From: Mesostigma viride
Taxonomy: Eukaryota > Streptophyta > Mesostigmatophyceae > Mesostigmatales > Mesostigmataceae
Assembly: GCA_009746045.1 (NCBI GenBank)
Contig: RPFO01000940.1
Location: forward strand, 1 to 64,000
Length of the DNA: 64,000 nt
Direction of reading: 5' to 3'
Below the pieces are notes generated by a model. The model was not told the DNA's origin. It made no database searches and saw nothing but the letters and a program-made list of their open reading frames with translations. Made by a program: the position numbers and the translations under genes. This document shows, in pieces, positions 1 through 43,147 of this stretch (positions within the stretch are counted from its first letter, which is position 1; every line of letters starts with the position of its first letter).

Positions 1-50
1 AATCCAGGCAGGCAATCGAAAAGGGATGCATAAAACAGCAGACCACGTAC

Positions 51-329
51 TGGGAGCAGCCGCAGGGCGAGACTGAGCCACCAGGTCGTCGATCGCAGCG
101 TGCGAATTGACTTCCGTGCCTGCGTCGTCCAGGTGGTCGTAGTCGTTGTGGTCAAAAAGGTCGTCAGAGGGGTTCCAGCCTGCAAAGAATGAATAGAAAA
201 TGCCAATGGCGTTCCTGTCAGCTGCTGAAAATGCCCAAAAAAACAAACCAAGGAAACACAAAAACAGACATGCATGGGGAAATACGTACGCTCAGGTTCC
301 TGGGCCTCATGTTCTGGTGTCGTCGCCAT
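51..329 (-). CDS. RING/TRAF zinc-finger gene, left copy: exons 1-2 only, cut by window edge
   Basis: This mirrors the complete gene at 11114-12635. Exon 1 is 290-329 on the minus strand (ATG at 329, 40 nt). A GTACGT donor and TTTGCAG acceptor lead to exon 2 at 51-179 (129 nt), which again ends at a GTACGT donor. Exon sizes and phases equal those of the right copy, so the gene model is supported twice. One residue differs in exon 1 (Pro here, Gln on the right). Exon 3, which encodes the RING and TRAF-type fingers, would lie left of position 1 and is not visible. Confidence 0.75.
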
Positions 330-429
330 AGCTGGCTAGCTGCTGATAGTGGTATCCTGCTGCTGTTCTGAGTGGTTCGTGAGGGTTTGGCTGCATTTTT
401 GGTCGTGTTTGGGCTTTTGGCCTCGTGGG

Positions 430-800
430 GAGGAGGACGAACGGCATATTCCCGGCATATTCCGGGAATATTCCCACGAATATGCCGTGGGACGGTCGCT
501 AGAAGGAAACTGTCGCGCCGCGTCGGCAGTTACGTGACAGGATACGGACTGTCATGGCAGACTGACGATCGGACAGGTGTCAGACGGGACAGTGCGCTGA
601 CTGTCGTGGCAGATCTTCGTAACCGACGCGGCGGAACCGGCGCGGCGCGGACTGACGTGGCAGCTGTCAGATCTGACGTGGCATACTGACATGGCAGGCC
701 GTCCGAACCGGCAGCTGACGGATACGGCTTGTACGGACTGTCATGTCAGACCGTCAGACTGCCACGTGGCAGTCTGGCACAATTGGACGGATCTAGTGGG
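430..800 (-). promoter_or_regulatory. Upstream repeat array of the left RING-gene copy
   Basis: Between the start of the RING gene (329, minus) and the 3' end of the F-box-like gene (1018) lies an array of near-palindromic motifs. Nested GGAATATTCC and CGTGGGA blocks occur at 440-495. From 540 to 780 there are about eight variants of CTGWCRTGKCAG, ending with a perfect CTGCCACGTGGCAG at 765. It mirrors 10650-11000. The array has the look of a transcription-factor binding cluster; function is inferred from position and motif repetition. Confidence 0.5.
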
Positions 801-1017
801 AAATCTTACAATGTACGTGCAGCGTATTTGTAGTAATCTGTACTACCTGTAGTACACCTGATGCATTTCTACTTCGAATATACTTCTGTACTACGAATCC
901 TAGTGCAATTGTACTATGAGACGCCATGAGATAGAGACAAAGTCATGGATTTCCATTAGAATCATAATAAGGCTTAATGCCCATAGGGGACTTTGTCTAT
1001 TCCAAAGGGGCACTTAG

Positions 1018-1653
1018 TTAGTGAACCCCCTCCAGGGCCAGGCGGCGACAGAACTTGTCGTACATCTTGTCGCAGGTGGCATTCATGACCCTCAGTTCCC
1101 TCTCGCAGACAGCGGGGGAAAAGTTGACAGGCAGATAGGCGTCGTACTCGGCCTTCACGAGGTCCACGAGCACACGGCAATGCTCCTCTGCGGTCTTATC
1201 CTTATCCACCTGAGGAATGGATTCAACATACTCCTTCATCACATCCCACAGGCGGGGAATCGCGCAAACGCGGTCAGACAGCTTAACCTCTAGGTCGATG
1301 GCCAGAGTTGCCACCTCCATACGCCTATCGCCATACTTGCAGGCGTCCATCCTCTTCTCAAAAGTGGAAAGGGACTGCACACCGCCTTGAGCGATGGCGA
1401 TGGCAAAGTTGCGCAGGGCCCATCCTGTATAGTGGCAAAACGGCCCTGGCTGCCTGCGCTTAGAGAGGAAGCGCCCCTCAAGCTCATTGGCAATAGCATC
1501 CAGCAGCTGCTTCATTCGCTGCTCTGTCTTAGCTTTGACAGCGTCCCACGGCACTTGCAGCTGCTTGCTGACACCACACCCGTGGGGCCATGCCAACTCC
1601 ACGATTTCGTGCACAATCTCAGCTGGCAGGCTGTTAAAAGTGGCAGCGGCCAT
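1018..1653 (-). CDS. F-box-like protein, paralogue A, left copy (211 aa)
   Basis: Intact frame of 211 residues. The N-terminus (residues 6-45) reads TFNSLPAEIVHEIVELAWP and continues to a VSK..L...W.AV pattern, which resembles an F-box (LPxEIxxxI..L...VSK.W). F-box proteins bring substrates to SCF-type ubiquitin ligases. The rest is predicted helical with no domain I recognise, apart from SIPQVD near residue 147, which the 222-aa paralogue at 4297 also has (SIPDVD). The two share about the same length and layout, so they are diverged paralogues. The right copy differs at residues 48 (K/M), 56 (N/T) and 182 (V/A), with no indels. The gene is divergent from the zinc-binding gene at 2124. An imperfect stem-loop (TGCCC..CTTTG / CAAAG..GGGCA) lies just past the stop at about 978-1016. 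The F-box call is by motif only. Confidence 0.8.
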   Translation of the reverse strand: MAAATFNSLPAEIVHEIVELAWPHGCGVSKQLQVPWDAVKAKTEQRMKQLLDAIANELEGRFLSKRRQPGPFCHYTGWALRNFAIAIAQGGVQSLSTFEKRMDACKYGDRRMEVATLAIDLEVKLSDRVCAIPRLWDVMKEYVESIPQVDKDKTAEEHCRVLVDLVKAEYDAYLPVNFSPAVCERELRVMNATCDKMYDKFCRRLALEGVH

Positions 1654-2123
1654 GTCTTCTTTGTGGTAGTGGTGCTAGTGCTGTTGGGATGCTGGAGCAG
1701 GCGAGAAGTGCCCACTTTGACGTGGTGTCGGACCTTTGTACCCGCCCCACGGCATCTTCGCGGAATATTCCGTGGACCGACGATCTCCCACGGGACGCTG
1801 CCACGTGGCGGAGATCGGACGGTCCACGGCAATTCAGATCTCCCATGATAGTACGGCGTATCTCGGATACGGCGCGGCGCCGGTACGGCCGGACCAGTAT
1901 CATGGATACTGGTCCGAGTACCGTGGCACGGCATTCCGCCACGTCACTACCGCGCCGCGCCGCGCCGCGCCATGGAACCTTCTAGAGGATCGATCCCAGC
2001 CGTCCGATGAAGATCTCGTGGGAGGGCCAGTTTCCACAGGTACAAAGGTCGTGCAGGCCTACCAAATGCACCATCACACCACAGAACAGCCATAGCCAGC
2101 GCAGAAAACAACAGCAGACCGCC
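1654..2123. promoter_or_regulatory. Divergent promoter region between F-box-like A and the zinc-binding gene (left)
   Basis: Both flanking genes read outward from this 470-bp region. On the minus side, TACAAAGGTC (about 1731-1740 on the plus strand as complement) lies roughly 80 bases before the ATG of gene A. On the plus side the same TACAAAGGTC occurs at 2041-2050, about 75 bases before the ATG at 2124. This duplicated element is a good TATA-like core-promoter candidate. Further motifs are GGAATATTCCGTGG near 1761, GCCACGTGGC at 1800, a CATGATAGTACG block, a duplicated ATACTGGTCCG palindrome around 1900 and TCGTGGGAGG at 2016. GCGCCGCGCC runs raise the GC content. Confidence 0.5.
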
Positions 2124-3375
2124 ATGTCCGTTGATGCAGCAGCTGGGCCATTGTTCGGGCTCAGACTAGGGCACAGACTAGGGCCTTGCATGGGCTTGGT
2201 TCTCCCAGATGCTATGGATTGCCATATCCTCGCTGCACAAAAACTAGGACTGGTTGTTCCGCCATAGCTCCTGCGCTTGTGCCAGTGCCTGCGCCTGTGC
2301 CAGCGCCAGTGCCTGTGATTGTGCCAGTGCCAGTGCCTGCTGCGCCAGTGCCTGAGCCTGTGTACGCCTGCCTGGGCTATTCGCCCCTCGGTTTAAGGAC
2401 TCTGACATTTGGCCTCACAGGCCATGTGTGGCCAAATGGTAGTGGCGATTCCAAGTTTCCTCTGGTGCATTGCGTCACCTGCAAAAAGGTGCCGGAGAGG
2501 GCAGTGTGCAAGAAGGAGAACGGGGAGATGCAGTGCCGGGGGTGCGCTCTGGATGAACTGAGCGACAAGGTGGATGCACTAGGTCCCTCTCCTCCCACGG
2601 AGCAGGTGCAGGAGACTGTCAAGAATTTTGACACGGGCTTGCAGATTTACAAGTACGAATATGAGCCCAAGCGTCTCCCGCCTCCTCCCACCGGCTACCC
2701 TCTGTCCAAGTGCATGTGCGCTGTGTGCAAGAAGCCTGCTCTCCACGCGCACGAAGTGGTGAAGGAGGTCACCCCTCAGATGCTGGAGACTACTTCCCAT
2801 TTCCGTGTTGCCAAGCTCGTGGTTGGCGACGTCGTTTGTGGGATCTGCCGCAACGAGTTCCTGGCCCAGTATGTCGACAACAACGTGGTCATCAGCAAGG
2901 CCATGTCTCGCGGCATGCAGTATTGGGAGTACAAGGGCCATATCGATGAGGTGTTCCAGTACAACGAGGAACTCCACAAGATGGCAGAGCGCGCCCATGA
3001 CAACACGCACAACGGCCCCTCCAGTGACAAGTTTTACTGGCCTCGCAGGCAGTGCCAGAAGTGCATGAAGCGCATCGACATCAACGTGCAGAACCTGTAT
3101 GTGGCTCCAAGGCCTCGTTCTTTGACGTTGACTTGGTCTGCTACGAGTGCGCCAAGTTCTGCAGCCTCGTTTCTGAGGCTGTCGCTTTCCCGGGCTTTAG
3201 CCGCCCCAACAACCGTCTCAAGCGTAATGCAGAGGCCGGGGCTTCCTTCTGTACGATGTTGTGGGGTCCAACAAGCCCTATTTCTTCGCGTAGGGTGTCA
3301 TCTGGGCACTTCATTGGCCCATGCAAGCCTATGGAGGCTACTGTTGATAGGGACTTGTGGTATTCTATTTTGTAA
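2124..3375 (+). CDS. Cys-rich zinc-binding protein, left copy, frameshifted
   Basis: The ATG at 2124 is the mirror of the start at 9302. The first part is out of frame with the rest because of short length differences relative to the right copy near 2131-2165. From 2186 the frame is open to 3118, where a T-run one base shorter than on the right (TTT against TTTT) shifts it again; the proper C-terminus (to TAA at 3373-3375) is in another frame. The conserved part has a Val-Pro-rich linker and then paired cysteines typical of zinc sites (CVTC, CRGC, CMCAVC, CGIC, CQKC, CYEC), suggesting several treble-clef or RING-like fingers. No catalytic domain is recognised. The right copy is broken at a different place, so the ancestral gene was probably intact. 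Confidence 0.65.
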
Positions 3376-3378
3376 TGA

Positions 3379-3431
3379 ATAAGACTCTTTGCATGCAAAT
3401 CCAACACTCATGCACTAGGCGTAGGACTTGA
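3379..3431 (+). terminator. Shared 3' element after the zinc-binding gene (left)
   Basis: Three bases after the stop begins AATAAGACTC.TTGCATGCAAATCC, followed by AACAC and, 35 bases on, TAGGACTTGA (3422-3431). The same two blocks in the same order follow the unrelated RING gene at 12766-12841. It includes an ATGCAAAT octamer and an AATAAA-like A-rich start, so it may be a cleavage/polyadenylation or termination signal. The function is inferred. Confidence 0.55.
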
Positions 3432-3440
3432 CTTGTTTGC

Positions 3441-4042
3441 GAAAAGTTCGGGCTATGCGGATAGCCCGAACTTTTGGGGATAGCCCGAACTTTTGGAAAC
3501 CTTGCTAGGGAAAAGTAAAAGTTTCCAGTGGGATCCCAGCCATTTGAAAAGTTCGGGCTATGGTTCGGGCTATCAGTTTATAGCCCGAACCGGACCCTTT
3601 TGCCCCTTGGCGGTGGTGTCATGCATTGTACATGGGGTAGGGACTTGGTTATTTGGACAGTGTGCAGTGTATGTGTGTGTGTTTCTTCCTTAGATTGCTA
3701 ACACATAAAATATAGGGGTATTTCCTGTATATACAGATAGGATTGCTAACACATAAAATATAGGGTATTAGCTATGATTATTTATAGATGACAATTGCTA
3801 ACACATAAAATTTTATGTGTTGGGAAACAGAGTAAAAGAAAGAGTAGCATTCCACCCATAGCAACACACCGCCCAGAGGGGAAAAAGGGGGTTCGGGCTA
3901 TAAATCGATAGCCCGAACCATAGCCCGAACTTTTCAAAATGGCTGGGATCCCCACTGGAAACTTTTACTTTTCCCTAGCAAGGTTTCGAAAAGTTCGGGC
4001 TATCCCCAAAAGTTCGGGCTATCCGCATAGCACGAACTTTTC
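3441..4042. repeat. Fold-back element nested in the left arm
   Basis: About 150 bp at each end are inverted copies of one another and are built from AAAAGTTCGGGCTAT and its complement. The first hairpin at 3442-3475 has a 15-bp perfect stem around GCGG. Inner GGTTCGGGCTAT/ATAGCCCGAACC stems flank an AT-rich core (3690-3830) with three copies of ATTGCTAACACATAAAAT. No open frame. It may be a MITE-like insertion or a structured intergenic region; target duplications are not evident. Mirrored at 7381-7982. Confidence 0.75.
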
Positions 4043-4296
4043 GTGGGAGCCTATGGCTGGGCGCCACGTGGCACGGTATCCCACGAGTTGCCGGCGCCGC
4101 GCCGGCGCGACGCTCCACGGAATATCGTGGGACGCCGCGCCGGCGCGACGCTTGCACGGCACTATCGTGGGACGCCGTGGCCGAGAGGGTATAAAAGCGG
4201 AGTCACGGGCGTTTGGGGGTAGGTCTCGCCTCCGACACTGCCAGGCACACAGTCATCCACACGCAGACAGCCATCCTTACAGCTGTAAAATACACA
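4043..4296 (+). promoter_or_regulatory. Promoter of F-box-like gene C, left
   Basis: A clear TATA box, TATAAAAG at 4190-4197, lies 100 bases before the ATG at 4297. Upstream are GCCACGTGGC at 4051, three CGTGGGA-type motifs (two inside ATCGTGGGAC at about 4125 and 4163) and GCGCCGGCGCGACGC repeats. The CGTGGGA and G-box motifs recur before the other genes of the palindrome. Confidence 0.65.
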
Positions 4297-4965
4297 ATGG
4301 CCCATGCTGGTGCTACTTTCGAGGATCTGCCAAGCGAAATTTTGTTTGTTTTGGCAGAGCTCAGCTGGCCCTACTTGCGTGGTGTGAACAAGGCCTCTCA
4401 CAAGGAATGGGAGGCCGTGCTGGCGATAATGGAGGCAAAGGTTCGCGCTGTGCGCAATTTGATTGACGAGGAACTGGAGTTCCGCGATGCCAACCCCTAT
4501 TGGTGGTTCGTCGATATAAAGAAGGTGACACCCCGCCGCCTGTATGAGATGACGCCTGATCAGCTGAGGGCCATTTATGACAAGGTGTCTGTGCCCCGCT
4601 TGCGTGAGGCGGAGGGGTACTTGTACACTACCCGCGCTGATCGTTTGGAGCAGATGGATCACGCGTACACTGATTTTGTGGAGGTGCTCAACCGAACTGT
4701 CAAGGTCCCCGTTGGCCCCCACACTAAGGCGGCGAGGGACGCCTATTTTGCGTCCATTCCTGATGTGGATCGCGAGAATGTGATGGAGCGTCGCGTTGAT
4801 GAGTTGGTCACTGTTCTGTGCGCGGGATTGGTGGCTGACGACACGGAGGCCAACGGGGGCGTGCCAACGGGTTTGGCCGACCTTCTCAGCGACATTTTCG
4901 ATTACAAGCACCGGATGATCGGTCGTATCTTCACCCATCCATCGTATAACCGGGTGATGCCTTAA
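4297..4965 (+). CDS. F-box-like protein, paralogue C, left copy (222 aa)
   Basis: I start this gene at the ATG at 4297, not the in-frame ATG at 4213, because 4213 lies close to the TATA box in the probable 5' leader and because MAHAGATFEDLPSEI aligns with the MAAATFNSLPAEI start of paralogue A. Residues 7-45 form an F-box-like segment (LPSEILFVLAELSWP, then GVNKASHKEW). A later SIPDVD motif matches SIPQVD of paralogue A. No other domain is recognised. The copies in the two arms are identical over about 210 residues; a one-base indel near 4900 gives different C-termini (HPSYNRVMP here, HPSIV on the right). A probable role is substrate adaptor in a cullin-RING ligase, inferred only from the N-terminal motif. 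Confidence 0.8.
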   Translation: MAHAGATFEDLPSEILFVLAELSWPYLRGVNKASHKEWEAVLAIMEAKVRAVRNLIDEELEFRDANPYWWFVDIKKVTPRRLYEMTPDQLRAIYDKVSVPRLREAEGYLYTTRADRLEQMDHAYTDFVEVLNRTVKVPVGPHTKAARDAYFASIPDVDRENVMERRVDELVTVLCAGLVADDTEANGGVPTGLADLLSDIFDYKHRMIGRIFTHPSYNRVMP

Positions 4966-4986
4966 ACAGGCAAATAGGGATCAACT

Positions 4987-5014
4987 GATATAGCCTATTG
5001 GAAAAGGCTATATC
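4987..5014 (+). terminator. Stem-loop after F-box-like gene C (left)
   Basis: GATATAGCC (4987-4995) and GGCTATATC (5006-5014) form a perfect 9-bp stem with a 10-base loop, 21 bases after the stop codon at 4965. Position suggests a 3'-end processing signal. Confidence 0.45.
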
Positions 5015-5159
5015 CCATGGACTGTCTTATATAACTTTTAATAAGACCGATTCCTATTGAAATTTGTCTCACAATGAGTCCCACAATGAGCCCCACTTAA
5101 AAAAAAATCTAAACCGCATACTATAAATAGCTAATGGAGCTATAGGGGTACCAGATTCC
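5015..5159. other. AT-rich spacer, no gene seen
   Basis: Contains duplicated CACAATGAG(T/C)CCCAC, an A9 run and CTATAAATAG. No coding signal. It mirrors 6266-6408. Confidence 0.5.
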
Positions 5160-6265
5160 CACGAACAATAGGGATTTCCCGCCACCCGCGCCTGTCACGT
5201 GATTTGTCTGCCACGTGGCATGACCCGATTGGTCAGCCCAGTCTCGTGGGATTCCAGATTCACATGGTGCCACGTGGCAGCCACCCACTCGACAGGGTGT
5301 CCCATGGGACTCCAGGGACCCCCATGGGTGCCACGTGGCAGGATCCCATTGGACAGGGTGTATCATGGGACGCCAGGGTCCCTGGGTGCCACGTGGCGGG
5401 TTCCGATTGGACAGGGAGTACCATGGGAGTACAGGGTCCCACGGAGATTCGGGGTCCCGGTGCCACGTGGCGGTTACTGATTGGACAGGGAGTCCCATGG
5501 GTGCCACGTGGCAGCGTCCCATTGGACAGGGAGGTCCCATGGGTGGCCAGGGTCCCAGGGGTCCCGGTGCCACGTGGCAGTCGCTGATTGGCCAGATAGT
5601 CCCATGGGAATCTCAGGGTGCCACGTGGCAGCCTCCCATTGGCGGCTACTACGCCAGGGTCCCTGGCAGGGTCCCACGATATATTTATCCCAACAATTGA
5701 CGGGTTAGAGGCGCCTCTAACCCGTCAATTGTTGGGATAAATATATCGTGGGACCCTGCCAGGGACCCTGGCGTAGTAGCCGCCAATGGGAGGCTGCCAC
5801 GTGGCACCCTGAGATTCCCATGGGACTATCTGGCCAATCAGCGACTGCCACGTGGCACCGGGACCCCTGGGACCCTGGCCACCCATGGGACCTCCCTGTC
5901 CAATGGGACGCTGCCACGTGGCACCCATGGGACTCCCTGTCCAATCAGTAACCGCCACGTGGCACCGGGACCCCGAATCTCCGTGGGACCCTGTACTCCC
6001 ATGGTACTCCCTGTCCAATCGGAACCCGCCACGTGGCACCCAGGGACCCTGGCGTCCCATGATACACCCTGTCCAATGGGATCCTGCCACGTGGCACCCA
6101 TGGGGGTCCCTGGAGTCCCATGGGACACCCTGTCGATGGGTGGCTGCCACGTGGCACCATGTGAATCTGGAATCCCACGAGACTGGGCTGACCAATCGGG
6201 TCATGCCACGTGGCAGACAATCACGTGACAGGCGCGGGTGGCGGGAAATCCCTATTGTTCGTGGG
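5160..6265. promoter_or_regulatory. Central G-box / CCAAT-box array around the palindrome axis
   Basis: Each half contains nine CACGTG sites (left: 5196, 5212, 5271, 5332, 5390, 5464, 5505, 5571, 5622), most inside TGCCACGTGGCA, spaced about 40-75 bp. Between them ATTGG (inverted CCAAT) recurs, usually as CCCATTGGACAGGG or GATTGGACAGGG, with CCATGGGA and CAGGGTCCC blocks. The innermost part is CGATATATTTATCCCAACAA followed by TTGACGGGTTAGAGGC and its mirror. The translated frames here are repetitive by-products of the array, not genes. Such dense, symmetric factor sites could be a bidirectional enhancer, a replication origin or a terminus-resolution region. Function is inferred. Confidence 0.65.
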
Positions 6266-6408
6266 AATCTGGTACCCCTATAGCTCCATTAGCTATTTAT
6301 AGTATGCGGTTTAGATTTTTTTTTAAGTGGGGCTCATTGTGGGACTCATTGTGAGACAAATTTCAATAGGAATCGGTCTTATTAAAAGTTATATAAGACA
6401 GTCCATGG

Positions 6409-6436
6409 GATATAGCCTTTTCCAATAGGCTATATC
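6409..6436 (-). terminator. Stem-loop after F-box-like gene C (right)
   Basis: Mirror of 4987-5014: a perfect 9-bp GATATAGCC/GGCTATATC stem downstream of the minus-strand gene ending at 6474. Confidence 0.45.
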
Positions 6437-6473
6437 AGTTGATCCCTATTTGCCTGTTTAAGGCATCACCCGG

Positions 6474-7127
6474 TTATACGATGGATGGGTGAAGATACGA
6501 CCGATCATCCGGTGCTTGTACTTCGAAAATGTCGCTGAGAAGGTCGGCCAAACCCGTTGGCACGCCCCCGTTGGCCTCCGTGTCGTCAGCCACCAATCCC
6601 GCGCACAGAACAGTGACCAACTCATCAACGCGACGCTCCATCACATTCTCGCGATCCACATCAGGAATGGACGCAAAATAGGCGTCCCTCGCCGCCTTAG
6701 TGTGGGGGCCAACGGGGACCTTGACAGTTCGGTTGAGCACCTCCACAAAATCAGTGTACGCGTGATCCATCTGCTCCAAACGATCAGCGCGGGTAGTGTA
6801 CAAGTACCCCTCCGCCTCACGCAAGCGGGGCACAGACACCTTGTCATAAATGGCCCTCAGCTGATCAGGCGTCATCTCATACAGGCGGCGGGGTGTCACC
6901 TTCTTTATATCGACGAACCACCAATAGGGGTTGGCATCGCGGAACTCCAGTTCCTCGTCAATCAAATTGCGCACAGCGCGAACCTTTGCCTCCATTATCG
7001 CCAGCACGGCCTCCCATTCCTTGTGAGAGGCCTTGTTCACACCACGCAAGTAGGGCCAGCTGAGCTCTGCCAAAACAAACAAAATTTCGCTTGGCAGATC
7101 CTCGAAAGTAGCACCAGCATGGGCCAT
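6474..7127 (-). CDS. F-box-like protein, paralogue C, right copy (217 aa)
   Basis: Mirror of the gene at 4297. It starts at 7127 with MAHAGATFEDLPSEI and matches the left copy until residue about 207. There an extra base (TTCGAAGTAC against TTCGATTAC) changes the last dozen residues and ends the protein at 6474. It is not clear which C-terminus is original. It has the same F-box-like N-terminus, SIPDVD motif, TATA box (7227-7234) and 3' stem-loop as the left copy. Near-identity of the two coding regions means recent duplication, gene conversion between the arms, or an assembly effect. Confidence 0.8.
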   Translation of the reverse strand: MAHAGATFEDLPSEILFVLAELSWPYLRGVNKASHKEWEAVLAIMEAKVRAVRNLIDEELEFRDANPYWWFVDIKKVTPRRLYEMTPDQLRAIYDKVSVPRLREAEGYLYTTRADRLEQMDHAYTDFVEVLNRTVKVPVGPHTKAARDAYFASIPDVDRENVMERRVDELVTVLCAGLVADDTEANGGVPTGLADLLSDIFEVQAPDDRSYLHPSIV

Positions 7128-7380
7128 TGTGTATTTTACAGCTGTAAGGATGGCTGTCTGCGTGTGGATGACTGTGTGCCTGGCAGTGTCGGAGGCGAGA
7201 CCTACCCCCAAACGCCCGTGACTCCGCTTTTATACCCTCTCGGCCACGGCGTCCCACGATAGTGCCGTGCAAGCGTCGCGCCGGCGCGGCGTCCCACGAT
7301 ATCCGTGGAGCGTCGCGCCGGCGCGGCGCCGGCAACTCGTGGGATACCATGCCACGTGGCGCCCATCCATAGGCTCCCAC
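7128..7380 (-). promoter_or_regulatory. Promoter of F-box-like gene C, right
   Basis: TATA box as complement CTTTTATA at 7227-7234, 100 bases upstream of the ATG at 7127. Then come CGTGGGA motifs (complement TCCCACGAT at about 7252 and 7291) and GCCACGTGGC near 7352. A few substitutions and one indel separate it from 4043-4296. Confidence 0.65.
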
Positions 7381-7982
7381 GAAAAGTTCGTGCTATGCGG
7401 ATAGCCCGAACTTTTGGGGATAGCCCGAACTTTTCGAAACCTTGCTAGGGAAAAGTAAAAGTTTCCAGTGGGGATCCCAGCCATTTTGAAAAGTTCGGGC
7501 TATGGTTCGGGCTATCGATTTATAGCCCGAACCGCCCCTTTTTCCCCTCTGGGCGGTGTGTTGCTATGGGTGATGCTACTCTTTCTTTTACTCTGTTTCC
7601 CAACACATAAAATTTTATGTGTTAGCAATTGTCATCTATAAATAATCATAGCTAATACCCCTATATTTTATGTGTTAGCAATCCTATCTGTATATACAGG
7701 AAATACCCCTATATTTTATGTGTTAGCAATCTAAGGAAGAAACACACACACATACACTGCACACTGTCCAAATAACCAAGTCCCTACCCCATGTACAATG
7801 CATGACACCACCGCCAAGGGGAAAAGGGTCCGGTTCGGGCTATAAACTGATAGCCCGAACCATAGCCCGAACTTTTCAAATGGCTGGGATCCCACTGGAA
7901 ACTTTTACTTTTCCCTAGCAAGGTTTCCAAAAGTTCGGGCTATCCCCAAAAGTTCGGGCTATCCGCATAGCCCGAACTTTTC
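7381..7982. repeat. Fold-back element nested in the right arm
   Basis: Mirror of 3441-4042, with the same AAAAGTTCGGGCTAT-based inverted ends and AT-rich core with CTAACACATAAAAT repeats. Several single-base differences from the left copy are visible. Confidence 0.75.
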
Positions 7983-7991
7983 GCAAACAAG

Positions 7992-8045
7992 TCAAGTCCT
8001 ACGCCTAGTGCATGAGTGTTGGATTTGCATGCAAAGAGTCTTATT
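7992..8045 (-). terminator. Shared 3' element after the zinc-binding gene (right)
   Basis: Complement of AATAAGACTCTTTGCATGCA at about 8026-8045 and of TAGGACTTGA at 7992-8001, directly after the stop at 8048-8050. Same block as at 3379 and 12766. Confidence 0.55.
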
Positions 8046-8047
8046 CA

Positions 8048-9302
8048 TTACAAAATAGAATACCACAAGTCCCTATCAACAGTAGCCTCCATAGGCTTGC
8101 ATGGGCCAATGAAGTGCCCAGATGACACCCTACGCGAAGAAATAGGGCTTGTTGGACCCCACAACATCGTACAGAAGGAAGCCCCGGCCTCTGCATTACG
8201 CTTGAGACGGTTGTTGGGGCGGCTAAAGCCCGGGAAAGCGACAGCCTCAGAAACAAGGCTGCAGAACTTGGCGCACTCGTAGCAGACCAAGTCAACGTCA
8301 AAAGAACGAGGCCTTGGAGCCACATACAGGTTCTGCACGTTGATGTCGATGCGCTTCATGCACTTCTGGCACTGCCTGCGAGGCCAGTAAAACTTGTCAC
8401 TGGAGGGGCCGTTGTGCGTGTTGTCCTGGGCGCGCTCTGCCATCTTGTGGAGTTCCTCGTTGTACTGGAACACCTCATCGATATGGCCCTTGTACTCCCA
8501 ATACTGCATGCCGCGAGACATGGCCTTGCTGATGACCACGTTGTTGTCGACATACTGGGCCAGGAACTCGTTGCGGCAGATCCCACAAACGACGTCGCCA
8601 ACCACGAGCTTGGCAACACGGAAATGGGAAGTAGTCTCCAGCATCTGAGGGGTGACCTCCTTCACCACTTCGTGCGCGTGGAGAGCAGGCTTCTTGCACA
8701 CAGCGCACATGCACTTGGACAGAGGGTAGCCGGTGGGAGGAGGTGGGAGACGCTTGGGCTCATATTCGTACTTGTAAATCTGCAAGCCCGTGTCAAAATT
8801 CTTGACAGTCTCCTGCACCTGCTCCGTGGGAGGAGAGGGACCTAGTGCATCCACCTTGTCGCTCAGTTCATCCAGAGCGCACCCCCGGCACTGCATCTCC
8901 CCGTTCTCCTTCTTGCACACTGCCCTCTCCGGCACCTTTTTGCAGGTGACGCAATGCACCAGAGGAAACTTGGAATCGCCACTACCATTTGGCCACACAT
9001 GGCCTGTGAGGCCAAATGTCAGAGTCCTTAAACCGAGGGGCGAATAGCCCAGGCACGTACACAGGCTCAGGCACTGGCGCAGCAGGCACTGGCACTGGCA
9101 CAATCACAGGCACTGGCGCTGGCACAGGCGCAGGCACTGGCACAAGCGCAGGAGCTATGGCGGAACAACCAGTCCTAGTTTTTGTGCAGCGAGGATATGG
9201 CAATCCATAGCATCTGGGAGAACCAAGCCCATGCAAGGCCCTAGTCTGTGCCCTAGTCTGACGCCTGAACAATGGCCCAGCTGCTGCATCAAGCTGAGAC
9301 AT
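8048..9302 (-). CDS. Cys-rich zinc-binding protein, right copy, frameshifted near 9056
   Basis: The start at 9302 (MSQLDAAAGPLF) reads in frame through a Pro-Val-rich stretch to about 9056. There two bases are missing relative to the left arm (GTACGTGCC against GTACGCCTGCC) and the frame is lost. Downstream the frame is open to the stop at 8048 and includes the intact C-terminal part that is broken in the left copy. Cysteine pairs CVTC, CRGC, CMCAVC, CGIC, CQKC and CYEC suggest several zinc-binding fingers. The two arms break at different places; their undamaged parts together imply an ancestral protein of roughly 415 residues. It is divergent from F-box-like gene A at 9774. Confidence 0.65.
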
Positions 9303-9773
9303 GGCGGTCTGCTGTTGTTTTCTGCGCTGGCTATGGCTGTTCTGTGGTGTGATGGTGCATTTGGTAGGCCTGCACGACCTTTGTACCTGTGGAAACTGGC
9401 CCTCCCACGAGATCTTCATCGGACGGCTGGGATCGATCCTCTAGAAGGTTCCATGGCGCGGCGCGGCGCGGCGCGGTAGTGACGTGGCGGAATGCCGTGC
9501 CACGGTACTCGGACCAGTATCCATGATACTGGTCCGGCCGTACCGGCGCCGCGCCGTATCCGAGATACGCCGTACTATCATGGGAGATCTGAATTGCCGT
9601 GGACCGTCCGATCTCTGCCACGTGGCGGCGTCCCGTGGGAGATCGTCGGTCCACGGAATATTCCGCGAAGATGCCGTGGGGCGGGGTACAAAGGTCCGAC
9701 ACCACGTCAAAGTGGGCACTTCTCGCCTGCTCCAGCATCCCAACAGCACTAGCACCACTACCACAAAGAAGAC
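9303..9773. promoter_or_regulatory. Divergent promoter region (right)
   Basis: Mirror of 1654-2123. TACAAAGGTC occurs toward gene A at 9687-9696 and, as complement, toward the zinc-binding gene at about 9377-9386, each some 75-85 bases from its ATG. GCCACGTGGC at 9619 and GGAATATTCC at about 9655 are conserved. Confidence 0.5.
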
Positions 9774-10409
9774 ATGGCCGCTGCCACTTTTAACAGCCTG
9801 CCAGCTGAGATTGTGCACGAAATCGTGGAGTTGGCATGGCCCCACGGGTGTGGTGTCAGCAAGCAGCTGCAAGTGCCGTGGGACGCTGTCAAAGCTAAGA
9901 CAGAGCAGCGAATGATGCAGCTGTTGGATGCTATTGCCACTGAGCTTGAGGGGCGCTTCCTCTCTAAGCGCAGGCAGCCAGGGCCGTTTTGCCACTATAC
10001 AGGATGGGCCCTGCGCAACTTTGCCATCGCCATCGCTCAAGGCGGTGTGCAGTCCCTTTCCACTTTTGAGAAGAGGATGGACGCCTGCAAGTATGGCGAT
10101 AGGCGTATGGAGGTGGCAACTCTGGCCATCGACCTAGAGGTTAAGCTGTCTGACCGCGTTTGCGCGATTCCCCGCCTGTGGGATGTGATGAAGGAGTATG
10201 TTGAATCCATTCCTCAGGTGGATAAGGATAAGACCGCAGAGGAGCATTGCCGTGTGCTCGTGGACCTCGTGAAGGCCGAGTACGACGCCTATCTGCCTGT
10301 CAACTTTTCCCCCGCTGCCTGCGAGAGGGAACTGAGGGTCATGAATGCCACCTGCGACAAGATGTACGACAAGTTCTGTCGCCGCCTGGCCCTGGAGGGG
10401 GTTCACTAA
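9774..10409 (+). CDS. F-box-like protein, paralogue A, right copy (211 aa)
   Basis: Mirror of 1018-1653, same length, uninterrupted. It has an F-box-like N-terminus (LPAEIVHEIVELAWP, VSKQL...W.AV) and a central SIPQVD shared with paralogue C. It differs from the left copy at residues 48 (M), 56 (T) and 182 (A), by point substitutions and without indels. The flanking non-coding DNA at 10410-10900 carries many more differences, including indels. That contrast suggests both copies have been kept under constraint. Its partner genes suggest ubiquitin-related work; direct evidence is limited to the motif. Confidence 0.8.
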   Translation: MAAATFNSLPAEIVHEIVELAWPHGCGVSKQLQVPWDAVKAKTEQRMMQLLDAIATELEGRFLSKRRQPGPFCHYTGWALRNFAIAIAQGGVQSLSTFEKRMDACKYGDRRMEVATLAIDLEVKLSDRVCAIPRLWDVMKEYVESIPQVDKDKTAEEHCRVLVDLVKAEYDAYLPVNFSPAACERELRVMNATCDKMYDKFCRRLALEGVH

Positions 10410-10640
10410 CTAAGTGCCCCTTTGGAATAGACAAAGTCCCCTATGGGCATTAAGCCTTATTATGATTCTAATGGAAATCCATGACTTTGTCTCTATCTCA
10501 TGGCGTCTCATAGTACAATTGCACTAGGAATCGTAGTACAGAGAGTATAATAGAAGTAGAAATGCATCAGGTGATACTACGTAGTACAGATTACTACAAA
10601 TACGCACGTTGCACGTACATTGTAAGATTTCCCACTAGAA
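10410..10640. other. 3' flank of F-box-like A (right), no gene seen
   Basis: An imperfect stem-loop of TGCCCC and GGGCA lies just past the stop (about 10414-10451), followed by AT-rich DNA with GTAGTAC repeats. It differs from its mirror (785-1017) by several indels. Confidence 0.4.
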
Positions 10641-11113
10641 TCCGTCCAAGTGTCGCCATACTGCCACGTGGCAACCTGGACGGTCTGACATGACAGTCCG
10701 TACAAGACTGTATCCGTCAGCTGCCGGTTCGGACGGCCTGCCATGTCAGTACCGTGCCACGTCAGATCTGACAGCGTGCCACGTCAGTCCGCGCCGCGCC
10801 GGTTCCGCCGCGCGTCGGTTACGAAGATCTGCCACGACAGTCGGCACACTGTCCCGTCTGACACCTGTCAGAACCGTCAGTCTGCCATGACAGTCCGTAT
10901 CCCTGTCACGTAACTGCCGACGCGGCGCGACCGTTTCCTTCTAGCGACCGTCCCACGGCATATTCGTGGGAATATTCCCGGAATATGCCGGGAATATGCC
11001 GTTCGCCCTCCTCCCCACGAGGCCAAAAGCCCAAACACGACCAAAAATGCAGCCAAACCCTCACGAACCACTCAGAACAGCAGCAGGATACCACTATCAG
11101 CAGCTAGCCAGCT
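10641..11113 (+). promoter_or_regulatory. Upstream array of the RING/TRAF-type gene
   Basis: Mirror of 330-790. It contains CTGCCACGTGGCA at 10661, a run of CTGACATGTCAG-like motifs to about 10910, then CGTGGGAATATTCCCGGAAT at 10966. No TATA box is obvious before the ATG at 11114. Confidence 0.5.
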
Positions 11114-12635
11114 ATGGCGACGACACAAGAACATGAGGCCCAGGAACCTGAGCGTACGTATTTTCCCATGCATGTCTGTTTTTGTGTTTCCTTGGTTTGT
11201 TTTTTGGGCATTTTCAGCAGCTGACAGGAACGCCATTGGTCATTTTCTATTCATTCTTTGCAGGCTGGAACCCCTCTGACGACCTTTTTGACCACAACGA
11301 CTACGACCACCTGGACGACGCAGGCACGGAAGTCAATTCGCACGCTGCGATCGACGACCTGGTGGCTCAGTCTCGCCCTGCGGCTGCTCCCAGTACGTGG
11401 TCTGCTGTTTTATGCATCCCTTTTCGATTGCCTGCTGGATTTTGCAGGTGATGGCCACTATCTGTTGGATGTTGCAGGTGATGGCCACTATCTGATACAT
11501 TTTGCAGTTGTCTGTGTGTTTTCCTTTGCATGCAGGCCTGCTGCGTGGTGGTCCCAGCTCCCGTTCTCGTTCTGGAGGCGCTGGGCCCAGCGGTGGGGAC
11601 TTAGCCGCATTGCAGCGCCAGCTGAGGGAGACGCAGGAGGAGTTGGAGCGCGAGAGGAACCGCAGCAGGCGTCGTTCTTTCTCCCCTGATCCCACTCGCG
11701 AAGAGCTCAAGAAGATGCGCTTGGCTCTCGAGGAGGCGAACCACAAGATCACGTGGTTCGAGAAGAGGCTGGCGTGCTGCGACATCTGCACCGAGCCCTT
11801 CGGCACGGAGGGGAAGTACCCCATCATCTACCTCGTGGAGGGCGTCCACACCTGCGTCCCTCAGCACTGCAACAAGTGCGCTGATATGCTCGAGGCCCAC
11901 GCTCTGGAGTATAATTCTACCAGGCCCAACGCCCGTGTGATTGGCAAGCGCTGCCCAGAATGCAAGGAGCTCCTGATGCGCACTGGCAGCCAGTACAAGC
12001 GCAATGTGGGTGTCGACAGACTCACATTCACCCTTGTGAATGTGCGTCTGTGCGCTCGCGGGTGCGGCGGCGAGGTCGTGCTCGGCGAGGAGGCGATTCA
12101 CGACAACACCTGCGCTAAGCTTGTCAGGCCCTGCCCCAACAAGCTTTCTCTCCCTGGTGATAACGGCACCGTGACCATCCTGGGCTGCACCTACCAGGCC
12201 ACCAGCCGCGAGGACTTGGATCGCCACCTGCGCGTGGTGGACAACGTGTCAGAGTGTGGTTTCCGTGGTCTGCCGGCCGCCATCGCCGCCGCCGCCGCCG
12301 CTGCTGCTCCTCCTGCTGCTCCTGCTGCTGCTCCTGCTGCTGCTCCTGCTGCTCGCGCTTCTTTCGCTGTTCGCGCTGTGGGGGGGAATGCGGATTACCC
12401 CGCGGGAGTCAACGGTTTCCTGTCCGCCCTGCAGTACATCAGGGATCACCCCCAACTGCAGTGCTCCGGGTCTGCGGGCAATGCACTGGCTGTGGCCTTC
12501 TTTGAGGCACTCGGCGGTGGCGTTGGGTGGGACGCGCTGGCCGTGAGGCGGTTGGTGGAACGCTTCCGCGATGCGACGAGGCGCATTGTTGAGAGGGACG
12601 CACAGTTGGTTGCTAATGTTCAGCCCAGGAGGTGA
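11114..12635 (+). CDS. RING plus TRAF-type zinc-finger protein, 3 exons (422 aa), probable E3 ubiquitin ligase
   Basis: Exons are 11114-11153, 11264-11392 and 11536-12635. Both introns have GTACGT donors and GCAG acceptors and are in phase 1. The N-terminus is acidic (DDLFDHNDYDHLDD), followed by a coiled coil with RS-rich flank (about residues 78-135). A RING follows at about 138-199 (CDIC, then HTC..QHCNKC, then CPEC). A TRAF-type zinc-finger segment follows at about 225-285 (RGCGGEVV....HDNTC...PCP, then C...DLDRH). An Ala/Pro-rich stretch from codon-repeat DNA (12285-12360) precedes a helical C-terminus. RING-TRAF proteins are normally E3 ligases. It shares upstream motifs with the palindrome genes and a 3' block with the zinc-binding gene. 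Exons 1-2 lie within the palindrome; a left copy is visible at 51-329. Confidence 0.8.
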
Positions 12636-12761
12636 TTGTGGTTGAGGATGAGTAGGGGGTCTAGAAAGGGGAAGGGGGCTATTCCTCCCTGTAGTGAGTG
12701 TGCCCTTGGATGCACCTCGTTGAGGACATTGTTGATTAGGACTTTGCCTATTGTACATTGT

Positions 12762-12841
12762 AATAAATAAGACTCATTGCATGCAAATCCAACACCAATG
12801 CATCATTAGATAGGAACCCGCGGCCCGCGAATAGGACTTGA
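12762..12841 (+). terminator. Shared 3' element after the RING gene
   Basis: AATAAATAAGACTCATTGCA, then TGCAAATCCAACAC at 12782, then TAGGACTTGA at 12832-12841. It matches the block after the zinc-binding gene base for base except for a few positions. It contains a canonical AATAAA at 12762. Confidence 0.6.
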
Positions 12842-12858
12842 ACGGATATCCCATGATA

Positions 12859-13890
12859 CTAGAGGTTCCCACGATACTGGCGCCTGTCACAGTACGGCCA
12901 GGTGGACGGCCGGGTGGACGGTGGGGTCGCCCTAGGGTTTAGTAGCTGCTGCCGCTTGGCCGGGGGATGATCACCCTGCTTGGCGTCGCCACCATGCCCG
13001 CGCTTGCGCCCTCGCTGGCCCCCGTTGTTGCCGTGGCCGACGACCTTTTTCAGGATGGCCGTAAGCTCCGACCGCGTAATGGGAGCCTCTGCGCCTGAGG
13101 AAGAAGACGCGCCGGTATCCACCTTGCGCAGGGATGGCAGAGCAGCCGAGGCAGCCGGCTTGGACTGCGCACTCTTGAAGCATGATATCAAATACAGCAT
13201 GCCCTCGTCGAAACTGACGGCACTCTTCTTTTTGAGTTCCGTCGCTATGGTCAGATGCACATCCGACGACAGGTCGCATTTCTTGAGAAATCGATTGCAC
13301 AGGAAAATGGGCTTGAGAGTATCTAGCAGCTTGTGCTTGTGCACGAAGACCTGGAAATCACGTGCAGCCCCGGGCAAATTTGCCTTATTAACTGCATAGC
13401 CCTCGAAGTCATTGAAGGCTTGCTCGTCGGCCTCTTCCTTAGACCGCGACAAGTGGGCATCTAGACCGTTGTAAAAAACTTCCCAGGTTTGTTTGTTGTC
13501 GTCCGCAATGCGAACTAGATTGGCAATGTTTGGGTGCTTTGTTGTACTGCAGAATACTGCACGGAACTTGCCAATCAGTTCCGAATCTTTGTCTGCGCGT
13601 CCATCGCGCAGACGCTTGAGAGCAGCTAGAAAATCTGCTGCGTCGTCCGCCGTATAGTCGGCAGGTAGATCCGCGGGCACCTCCGTTTGCTTGAGAGGGC
13701 CGCGATTCAGTGCGTCGTCAGCAGCAAGCATCAGATGCTTGAACTGCTTGGCCAGTTCCGGTTGCGCCACGAGGGTTTGCATCAACCTCGTGGCCTCGTC
13801 CGCACTAAAGCGTGGCAGGACGGTCCCGGCGGCCTCGCCACTTGGCGTATCTGTGTGTTCGCCCGTGCGGCTCCGTGTACCGGAAGCCAT
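12859..13890 (-). CDS. Gag-like protein of unknown element (343 aa)
   Basis: Uninterrupted frame starting MASGTRSRTGEHTD at 13890. The main part is helical (SADEATRLMQTLVAQPELAKQ onward), and the C-terminus is basic and Gly/Arg/Lys-rich (GGQRGRKRGHGG, PPAKRQQ), as in nucleic-acid-binding tails. Size, composition and the adjacent transposons suggest a retroelement Gag or ORF1. No zinc knuckle or protease is seen and no polymerase follows, so it may be an orphan. A small CGTGGGA/CATGATACT cluster at 12850-12885 near its 3' end resembles palindrome promoter DNA. Confidence 0.6.
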   Translation of the reverse strand: MASGTRSRTGEHTDTPSGEAAGTVLPRFSADEATRLMQTLVAQPELAKQFKHLMLAADDALNRGPLKQTEVPADLPADYTADDAADFLAALKRLRDGRADKDSELIGKFRAVFCSTTKHPNIANLVRIADDNKQTWEVFYNGLDAHLSRSKEEADEQAFNDFEGYAVNKANLPGAARDFQVFVHKHKLLDTLKPIFLCNRFLKKCDLSSDVHLTIATELKKKSAVSFDEGMLYLISCFKSAQSKPAASAALPSLRKVDTGASSSSGAEAPITRSELTAILKKVVGHGNNGGQRGRKRGHGGDAKQGDHPPAKRQQLLNPRATPPSTRPSTWPYCDRRQYRGNL

Positions 13891-40800: not shown

Positions 40801-41682
40801 ACAATTTGCTACTGATGCCGCTGCTGGTGCTTTTTTGCATGTCAGTGCCCGCTATGTTCACACCACTGTTGCCGCGGTTGGTATCGCGTGATTTCCACCG
40901 GTTGTGCGTTGACATGTGTTACTCATGCATTTGCCCCTATATTTGGTAGCACGCGGTTTCGCGTTAGTTAGGTGCAGACAGCTGCATGTAGACAAACATC
41001 TTGTTTAAGTCGGTCAATTAACTGTTCTTGACGCATCATGGTCCAAGTCGACCGACCTGTAGGGACCAGTAGAGCAATTGTCTAGGAGAAAGAGCGTGAT
41101 CGCTGCAGAAGCCGCGTGGCAGCCGTGGCTGTACCTGTAGTACGACCTGCATATATATGGATACTGTATTTGGATACTGGGTTGTTTATCAATTCTGGTT
41201 TTAATTTATTTAGTGTACCTGGTGTTGGCATGCCAACTCAGTGCTAAACTACTTTATGCACAATGATGCAACTTGATGCTATAGTGACGTGCCACGATGT
41301 AACTTTATTAACTTCACCATTAGTCATGGGGTCAATAGGATTGCTCATTATGCCATGTTAACATGAACCATGGGTTACGTAATAGTGAAAACAGTAATCA
41401 TGATGCTCCACTTGAAGTCTCCAACATGGTCATGTTTGGAATTTTATTGATCATATTCACAATATATGAAAAGAGACAACAAACGTGGAAGCATGGCACG
41501 CCGAGGCCGATAATATATGTGTGAAATATGAAAAGAGACAACATCTTTGGCAAGCATGATCATATTATGCTTGCCAAACATATTAATGATATCGACCATG
41601 TCCAGAAACCATGTTTGCCAATGGTGCATTTAGGATACATTTGAAGCCGTGCAAATGTATCCTAATCCGGTAAAACCACCCG

Positions 41683-43147
41683 GGGTGGTCTCCTTCATCA
41701 CTACTTGCCATCTATCCTTGCGCACCATCTGCCTCCATATTACAGACAAACCAGGAGGCTGCCCGGGGGTGAGCCCGTCACGTCTAGTGTAGCACATGTC
41801 CATGCCGAGTCTATCACGAAAAGTCCACGGGTGGCGGCCCTGCCGCGCGCGGCCGGGGGCACGCCAGGTGAGGACATATCGCCCAGGCTGGGCGGGCTTG
41901 GTGCCAGCTAGTCTATCTGATGTATCGACCTGATCTGTGCGGGCCAGGTGCCCGGCTAGGCCCAGGCGCCTGTGCCTAATAATGTGGGAAACATAGGGCA
42001 AATCAGCGTACAAATCCTCATTACTAATGTGCAAACCCAAGGGGATGTTAAGGGCCTTGCGCAGCATCTTGGTGACAGCGCCGTCGAGTCGTTGCTCCAG
42101 CTCCTGCATCAGTGTCCACGTCTCGGCGCCGTAGGTCAGGATCGTCAGAATGACGACCTTGAAGAGGTCACGCTTGACGATCCGGGGTAGGGCGGGGTTG
42201 CTCCACCAGCGGCGGTGGTCATGGAGGTGCGCCCACGCCATGCCGATCCGTGTCGTCATGTCGTCCTCGCAGTCGGGAAGCCAACTGCCGAGCAGCTTGA
42301 AGCGGCCTGAAGGAGGGTAGTTGACCTCGGCATCGTCTAAGAGGCGGAGTGTGGGTGGGGTCCCTGCCATGCCGAGGGCCAGGGCCTCCGTTTTGGGGCT
42401 GATTTCTAGACCAACCGCCCGAGCCTCGAGCGCCAGGCAGTCCAGCCAAAGTTGGGCAGACTCCGGCTTCTCGATGAGCGTGATGTCGTCGGCATAAATG
42501 AGGTCAGCTAGTAAATTCTGCTTGTTAGTCGGCCCCCCTTCCCCAAGCTCGTTCGTGATCGCTAGGCCAGGGGCACGGCCTGCAATGCTAGCAAAGCGAG
42601 CACGTGCCTGGCGCATAACATAATCCACTACAATAATAAACAGGTACGGCGACAGGACGCAACCCTGCCAGACGCCGGTCTGCAGTGGGCATGGCGGGGT
42701 AATGCCGTGTTGAGTGCGCACCGAAGTGCCGGTCGACCCCTCATACAGCGTGCGGATGACGGTAATCAGGGGAGTGGGGACGCGAGCGCGAGCAAGTACA
42801 GCCCATAGAGCGTCCCAGAGGACAGAATCAAAAGCCTTGATGAAGTCGACGAAGATCAGGATGGCGGGAAACTCACCAGGTTGCAGGAGAGCGATTTCCT
42901 CGAAGAGGCGACGCGCGACGAAGATGGCCATGACGGTGTTGCGCCCAGGACGGAAGCCCATTTGACTTTCCCCCAGGTGACAATCGAGAGCAGAACGAAG
43001 GCGGTTGAGGATCATGCGCATGAACAACTTAAGTGCGGCGCTCTGGATGCAGACTCCTCTGTAGTTGGCGGGGTCGTCAGGGGAACCTTTGTTTTTGTAC
43101 AGCATAATACGGTAGCTGTGCTGCCACTCAGGAATCGGCGGCGCGTT
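41683..43147 (-). pseudogene. LINE ORF2 fragment: reverse transcriptase and C-terminal domain
   Basis: A frame of about 490 residues from the truncated 5' end. RT motif A is FVDFIKAFDSVLWD, motif B is GVWQGCVLSPYLF and the catalytic motif C is YADDITLIE. The C-terminal segment MLRKALNI...HIIRHRRLGLAGHLAR is typical of RTE/L2/CR1-type LINEs. The endonuclease domain is missing through 5' truncation. The frame runs into the TIR element after KETTP; in the unbroken copy it continues to a stop at 14796. Confidence 0.85.

Follow-up and report, generated by a model that had tools for sequence, protein, structure and literature searches.

Introduction

What kind of element is the mirrored block of genes that opens contig RPFO01000940.1 of the streptophyte alga Mesostigma viride (assembly GCA_009746045.1)? 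The whole stretch analysed, referred to as the window, comprises positions 1 to 64,000 of this contig and corresponds to C1917:1-64000 in the genome searched, which holds 439,911,974 bases in 2,243 contigs (C-numbers are contig labels). The published NIES-296 assembly amounts to 441.8 Mb and involved PacBio RSII reads, Canu, Pilon, and optical maps (PMC6947507). The block, termed palindrome A, is about 14.5 kb long and carries four genes per arm, namely two F-box-like genes (FB1 and FB2), a multi-Cys zinc-type gene, and a RING/TRAF-like gene. Palindrome A probably represents a terminal or junction segment that belongs to a giant virus (Nucleocytoviricota) endogenous in M. viride. As several of the palindromes are joined to giant-virus DNA, the gene block has the look of a viral genome end, from a virus that entered the chromosomes of the alga many times.

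Organization of Palindrome A

The two arms of A are arranged head-to-head with no spacer between them. The window arms, 1-5712 and 5713-11441, align across the entire left arm; the 5,699 aligned columns contain 29 substitutions, and there are some 30 small insertions or deletions (indels). The left arm (1..5712) is truncated by the contig start, while the right arm (5713..12945) is complete; its length of 7,233 bp, including all four genes, follows from the end of homology to other copies at position 12945. The centre of the palindrome lies at 5699..5726, and the outer terminus, reading ...CCCTAGGGTTTAGTAG, was placed at 12866..12945 by comparison with other copies. Gene layout and mirror symmetry, which an earlier note on this DNA had described, are confirmed by the arm alignment. 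With 21 contigs or more carrying the mirrored pair, the arrangement goes far beyond chance. The same note had counted three mirrored genes. FB1, FB2, and the zinc-type gene do occur twice; the RING/TRAF-like gene has to be added, because other copies place the outer end at 12945 and not at 11441. Its exons 1-2 are mirrored at about 1-330, and the visible mirror stops in its second intron because the contig begins there.

Immediately outside the element, a gag-like open reading frame (ORF), recognized by eye and without a Pfam match, occupies 12946..13890 on the minus strand. It is interrupted by A, and its last 28 codons fall within A.

Copies of A across the Genome

The genome was searched with the 222-amino acid FB2 protein, which gave 153 matches; 150 of 363 candidates were scored, and contig counts refer to the matches listed. 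Among these, mirrored FB2 pairs (plus strand, then minus strand) with 95-100% amino acid identity and a distance of 2.05-2.25 kb were found on at least 21 contigs, including that of the window. The pairs are shortened or split in C308, C38, and C2189, and a subfamily of about 80% identity is also paired among the matches listed (C1852, C2240, C1801, C1660, and C2200). About 108 central bases are the same in all 12 palindromic loci compared (window, C1768, C258, C2189, C2180, C1737, C1801, C1189, C435, C671, C735, and C914). The unpaired copy in C2043 is without a palindrome centre, and C667 carries a single A arm, the mirror being left 12 bp beyond the centre.

Divergence within and between loci was counted over the ~1,800 bp next to the palindrome centre. 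The arms of one locus differ from each other at 0, 0, 0, 2, 3, 17, and 27 sites in the loci measured. The palindrome in C1801, deep within a contig of 7.9 Mb, has arms with 99.4% identity to one another and about 96% identity to the window; they differ at 17 of 1,800 sites from each other versus 107-132 sites from other loci. In the outer arm, some variants of the window left arm ('SQRT' and 'DTCPI') recur in the M. viride gene model Mv02857, whose length in this region follows the right arm. At five loci (C1768, C1835, C1964, C115, and C255), both ends of A are seen with different flanks.

Outer Ends and the Junction with Segment B

In total, 23 outer ends were collected, 22 of them by pattern and one as a variant end in C258; five of 18 genome stretches examined were without an A end. 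The A ends detected stop at ...GGGTTTAGTAG, with small variants in C258, C1728, and C2189. Eight of the 23 ends, on seven contigs, run through TATGGGGTC, a core, and GACCCCATA into CTACAAAACCCTAAGGTGACCCC, which is the start of a second sequence, segment B. The remaining 15 ends abut 11 other flanks, as judged by their first bases; one flank is common to C2189, C735, and C115, one to both C258 ends, and one to both C1728 ends. These non-B flanks are of varied sequence, and some of them lie within contigs of 1.6-6.2 Mb.

The core of the A/B junction comprises 32-33 nucleotides in seven of the eight cases, of which four have one orientation and three the opposite one; in the eighth it is shortened to 14 nucleotides. 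When one form (flip) is compared with the reverse complement of the other (flop), 31-32 of the 32-33 positions are equal, versus only 10-11 in the same orientation. Around the core, A and B form an imperfect, hairpin-like palindrome with 29 of 32 stem positions matched and none beyond.

Segment B and Its Viral Genes

Segment B extends over about 37 kb in C2180, where it is bounded on both sides by the A-type junction. Among its predicted proteins are a ribonucleotide reductase in two pieces (PF17975, 2.7e-6; PF02867, 6.2e-7) and a MYND protein (PF01753, 1.1e-9), all above the Pfam cut-offs. A helicase is represented by its C-terminal part (C2180:15471-16523), for which the best PDB chain is 7amv_W, the vaccinia protein VETFS (2e-6), followed by poxvirus NPH-I at 0.16. 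In a Pfam scan of 20 ORFs of B, 15 had no match at an E-value of 0.01. The ORF C2180:23237-23905, which begins with FQALPPLALRIILDRSWPTGHGV, gave no profile match; by eye, it is distantly related to the F-box-like proteins.

In C667, a contig of 6.0 Mb, B-like DNA of 97-98% identity adjoins the A arm, with further genes beyond it. The DNA continuing from A arm and B encodes a primase of the C962R-type AEP family (C667:456860-458203; PF23162, 3.8e-19; Herpes_UL52, 1.4e-5), while the other nine proteins in the same scan, eight from C667 and one from C2180, had no match at an E-value of 0.05. VLTF3 was not seen among the scanned ORFs of C2180 and C667, with no genome-wide search behind this. At the level of the assembly, viral DNA is linked to long contigs, with A arm, B, and primase in C667 and A plus the B junction in C1801 (7.9 Mb) and C1835 (1.6 Mb). 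As a separate observation made at C667:442701-442777, the A arm is followed by another GC-rich dyad and then by B DNA that is reversed relative to C2180, so that this is a rearranged copy.

A short motif, GGAATATTCC, is common to A and B. It occurs twice per 7.2-kb arm, three times in the 36.8 kb of B, and not at all in the remaining 50 kb of the window, all four window occurrences lying within 1-12000 (one strand); it is also missing from a further 20 kb taken from other stretches, although half of this sequence is viral DNA of C667. The G-box CCACGTGGC is not enriched in B, with three occurrences in 36.8 kb versus 22 in the arm (both strands). The virus-derived or selfish module that the earlier note had suspected in the palindrome is supported by the copy number, the sharp ends, and the joining of eight of 23 ends to DNA with giant-virus genes.

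The Arm Genes and the Divergence of FB2

FB1 (211 amino acids) is located at 1018..1653 on the minus strand in the left arm and at 9774..10409 on the plus strand in the right arm. FB2 is found at 4297..4965 (plus strand) and 6474..7127 (minus strand), the C-terminus of the right copy being frame-shifted relative to the left. The zinc-type gene (2124..3375, plus strand; 8048..9303, minus strand) has a broken frame in each arm, but not at the same place, and a clean copy is found in neither; sequencing error and decay are indistinguishable as causes of these breaks. The RING/TRAF-like gene (11114..12635, plus strand) has three exons, 11114-11153, 11264-11392, and 11536-12635, separated by GT-AG introns, and its exon 2 and most of exon 3 are also present in the model Mv02857. 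The codon-position pattern of the copies measured is coding-like, with a third-position GC content of 0.67-0.74. Independently of this, the 3' ends of the zinc-type and RING-like genes have an 84%-identical stretch in common (window 3342-3414 and 12730-12802).

Relatives were sought among 5.8 billion proteins by a search that detects those with short exact words in common with the query. Three of the four arm proteins were covered, as the queries were FB1, an alignment of FB1 and FB2, and the RING-like protein; for one query, only the 7,997 candidates with the most words in common were scored. At E-values of up to 1, all matches were M. viride gene models (EukProt Mesvir1) in six clusters, namely Mv25781 and Mv25409 for FB1, Mv26238, Mv25505, and Mv25780 for FB2, and Mv02857 for the RING/TRAF-like protein. 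Since Mv25780 (FB2) and Mv25781 (FB1) bear adjacent numbers, the FB1/FB2 pair probably recurs side by side elsewhere. The FB2 genome search also listed at least about 20 single copies of a 226-amino acid relative (30% identity) and a further set of relatives of about 231 amino acids (28%). To judge from these sequences, the F-box-like family is large in this genome.

FB1 and FB2 have their first 60 residues in common (42% identity, E-value 3e-12). No Pfam F-box model matched any of the six family members searched, and no Pfam RING or TRAF model matched the RING/TRAF-like protein, whose RING-like Cys/His spacing was judged by eye and whose structure model reaches a mean predicted local distance difference test score (pLDDT) of 41.7. 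A PDB sequence search of the arm proteins returned no relative. The AlphaFold model from the F-box-like family is all-helical, with a mean pLDDT of 65.6 and an N-terminus below 50, too weak to judge the fold. With a rough F-box profile of nine sequences, five of the six members scored 1.0-1.8 bits over only 10-16 N-terminal residues; shuffled sequences scored equally or better in 7-13 of 2,000 trials for one protein and in 17-27 of 2,000 for the other (top ~1.5%). The sixth member, P0005, had its best match elsewhere (residues 77-88, 4.1 bits). With neither F-box nor RING model matched, no PDB relative, and weak structure models, the redirection of host protein degradation that the earlier note had ascribed to the module is left without support. 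That note had named the lack of an F-box fold in combination with ordinary, dispersed host genes as speaking against it; the two did not come together, as the fold was not demonstrated and the genes are not ordinary host genes.

The two parts of FB2 have diverged differently. Mv25780 is identical to window FB2 in 60 of the first 60 columns and differs in 48 of the remaining 164. Between the window and C1801, DNA identity is 98.9% in FB2 codons 1-60, 88.5% from codon 61 to the end, 95.3% in the noncoding DNA that separates FB2 from the centre, and 98.7% directly past the gene. The divergent block spans the second part of FB2 and, more weakly, adjacent DNA; its edge near codon 60, together with the diverged noncoding side, points to the exchange of a divergent allele. 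From codon 61 onward, 51.7 nonsynonymous and 14.3 synonymous changes were counted, corresponding to a nonsynonymous rate (dN) of 0.158 and a synonymous rate (dS) of 0.152, and the greater coding divergence of the block would fit relaxed or diversifying selection as well. Across the subfamilies compared, FB2 has a near-constant N-terminus and a remainder that diverges.

Origin of Palindrome A

The favoured scenario would start from a linear virus with terminal inverted repeats, each equivalent to an A arm, and with hairpin-type ends. Copying through the hairpin would yield the arm-arm palindrome, much as concatemers arise in giant viruses with hairpin ends. The host genome would then have received units cut at the A/B junction repeatedly, in the case of most copies recently. 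The arm genes would be host-interaction genes of the sort that such viruses keep near their ends, and FB2 may combine a constant N-terminal docking part with a changeable part for binding a host target. A more far-reaching version is put forward tentatively. It holds that a giant virus might spread in the chromosomes of a streptophyte alga as units bounded by complete 14.5-kb palindromes and cut at a telomere-like flip/flop junction; the genome would keep snapshots of end replication, and the palindrome might also move alone as a hairpin-ended satellite, with host-interaction genes diversifying in one half.

Several observations weigh against a viral terminus. With regard to gene content, A is without a hallmark viral gene, and capsid, packaging ATPase, and polymerase were not seen among the C2180 and C667 ORFs scanned, with no genome-wide search behind this. 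The reductase is not diagnostic, for 291 IMG/VR stretches match it (the best 80 at 54-67% identity), many of them probably phage. The helicase match to PF00271 (3.3e-4, 21.3 bits) is under the Pfam cut-off, as is the weak OTU match of B to PF02338 (0.0024, 18.8 bits). As for the architecture, the sequences on either side of the core are not one and the same terminal repeat; because the sequence common to A and B is only about 32 bp long, the junction is not a simple telomere fold-back. The outer flanks in C1728 are nearly the same in mirror image, as a fold-back would yield. Viral DNA runs on past the B end in C667, though B in C2180 ends in A on both sides, which bears on the genome geometry. 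Young copies differ at 0-25 sites between loci, so the contrast of within- and between-locus divergence says little, and C2189 has the reversed pattern, with 27 differences between its own arms versus 12-25 to other young copies. Concerning FB2, the C1801 copy behind the dN/dS comparison is partly decayed, its FB1 being broken, and the whole-gene ratio versus C667 is 0.29, which indicates constraint in that comparison.

The most serious competitor, which we regard as rather unlikely, is that A is a palindromic mobile element or viral satellite in its own right, hairpin-ended, which rides on or inserts beside the endogenous giant virus and enters the host genome by itself as well. The 11 different non-B flanks at 15 of 23 outer ends speak for such an element, and the two identical ends of A, its lack of a core viral gene, and loci with A and no B in the stretch read point the same way. 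However, at most loci the sequence read on the non-B side extends no farther than between a few hundred bases and a few kb, no transposase or integrase was recognized in A, and all eight A/B joints are the same specific junction, which bounds B on both sides in C2180. In addition, B has GGAATATTCC and the distant F-box-like ORF (by eye) in common with A.

Fold-back during sequencing or assembly, by which long reads or the assembler would create false inverted duplications near contig ends, is known for long reads (PMC12870357). The window palindrome does lie at a contig start and five others are 3-14 kb from contig ends; the spacer is zero, indels between the window arms are as frequent as substitutions, and the C1728 flanks are mirrored. 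Against this stand the different sequences on the two sides of five loci, the recurrence with an identical centre in 12 of 12 loci, the C1801 palindrome deep in its contig with arms of 99.4% identity, and the left-arm variants that recur in another genomic copy, Mv02857; an artefact is considered very improbable. An ordinary cluster of host genes, specific to this lineage and amplified by inverted duplication within repeat-rich DNA, would explain the confinement of homologues to M. viride proteins for the queries used and the spliceosomal introns of the RING-like gene, but it is just as improbable in view of the specific junction that leads into DNA with giant-virus genes, the sharp end that is the same whichever of 11 different flanks it adjoins, the insertion into the gag-like ORF, and the distant F-box-like ORF within B.

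Comparison with Known Viral Ends

The viral-terminus reading finds its closest parallel in the chlorovirus PBCV-1. The linear DNA of this virus is closed by 35-nucleotide hairpin loops that occur as two inverted-complementary forms, with a 2.2-kb inverted repeat next to each loop; its F-box-like ankyrin proteins bind a viral Skp1 (PMC7019647). The 32/33-nucleotide two-form core, the long inverted repeats, and the green-alga host are alike; PBCV-1 encodes F-box-like proteins, and those of M. viride are F-box-like only, the domain being unconfirmed. Unlike in PBCV-1, the core in M. viride lies between two different sequences, A and B, within host genome contigs, with a 14.5-kb head-to-head palindrome as the long inverted repeat.

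Poxvirus ends carry hairpins and inverted terminal repeats with host-range genes, form concatemer junctions, and have host-interaction genes near them. A resembles such a terminal region in its head-to-head palindromic junction, and the helicase of B is closest to VETFS; unlike in poxviruses, the host is an alga and the RING-like arm gene is spliced. Pandoraviruses are described as having F-box and Ring proteins, and in one species a segment at the genome end is duplicated in inverted and nearly identical form (PMC6418002). The likeness is one to that description, the F-box and RING domains of the M. viride proteins being unconfirmed.

With the giant endogenous viral elements of green algae, the M. 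viride loci have in common that giant-virus genes lie in long contigs; they differ in the streptophyte host, the many copies, and the retained telomere-like junctions. Such elements have been reported mainly from chlorophytes.

Repeats and Other Features of the Window

Both sides of the palindrome centre are occupied by an array of repeats (5199..6226) with units of about 41-66 bp that contain the G-box CCACGTGGC and CCAAT; 22 of the 25 G-boxes in the window lie within 1-12000 (one strand). Each arm has an insertion resembling a miniature inverted-repeat transposable element (MITE) with terminal inverted repeats of about 180 bp, at 3440..4043 in the left arm and as its mirror copy at 7380..7983 in the right arm. 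At the MITE-like element of one A arm in C1768, about 6.9 kb of other sequence are inserted (C1768:1763361-1770255).

Farther along the window, a reverse transcriptase (41633-43147, minus strand; RVT_1, 3e-25) is of the non-long terminal repeat type by eye, and a tyrosine recombinase ORF (50346-51191, minus strand) matches Phage_integrase at 1e-6. An ORF resembling this recombinase, by eye, adjoins the C1737 copy of A (L020:2459-3454). A tandem 170-bp satellite at 61857-63856, with 11 registers identical over 300 nucleotides, is possibly a centromeric or subtelomeric repeat.

Biological Implications

Neither flip/flop telomeres nor endogenous giant viruses of green algae are new as such, and integrated viruses of protists and green algae have reportedly been the subject of earlier papers. 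In the literature searched, as far as its text was available, there is no account of either an endogenous giant virus or a flip/flop telomere for Mesostigma. The replication of giant-virus ends and the entry of such viruses into algal chromosomes are hard to study because assemblies readily lose such ends. A large number of recent copies with the centre, both loop orientations, and the insertion junctions would make these steps readable from sequence. The constant first part of FB2 with its diverging rest is a pattern that host-virus conflict might produce. Furthermore, with palindrome A and segment B a giant virus would be on record for a streptophyte lineage that is among the deepest, on the land-plant side of the green tree.

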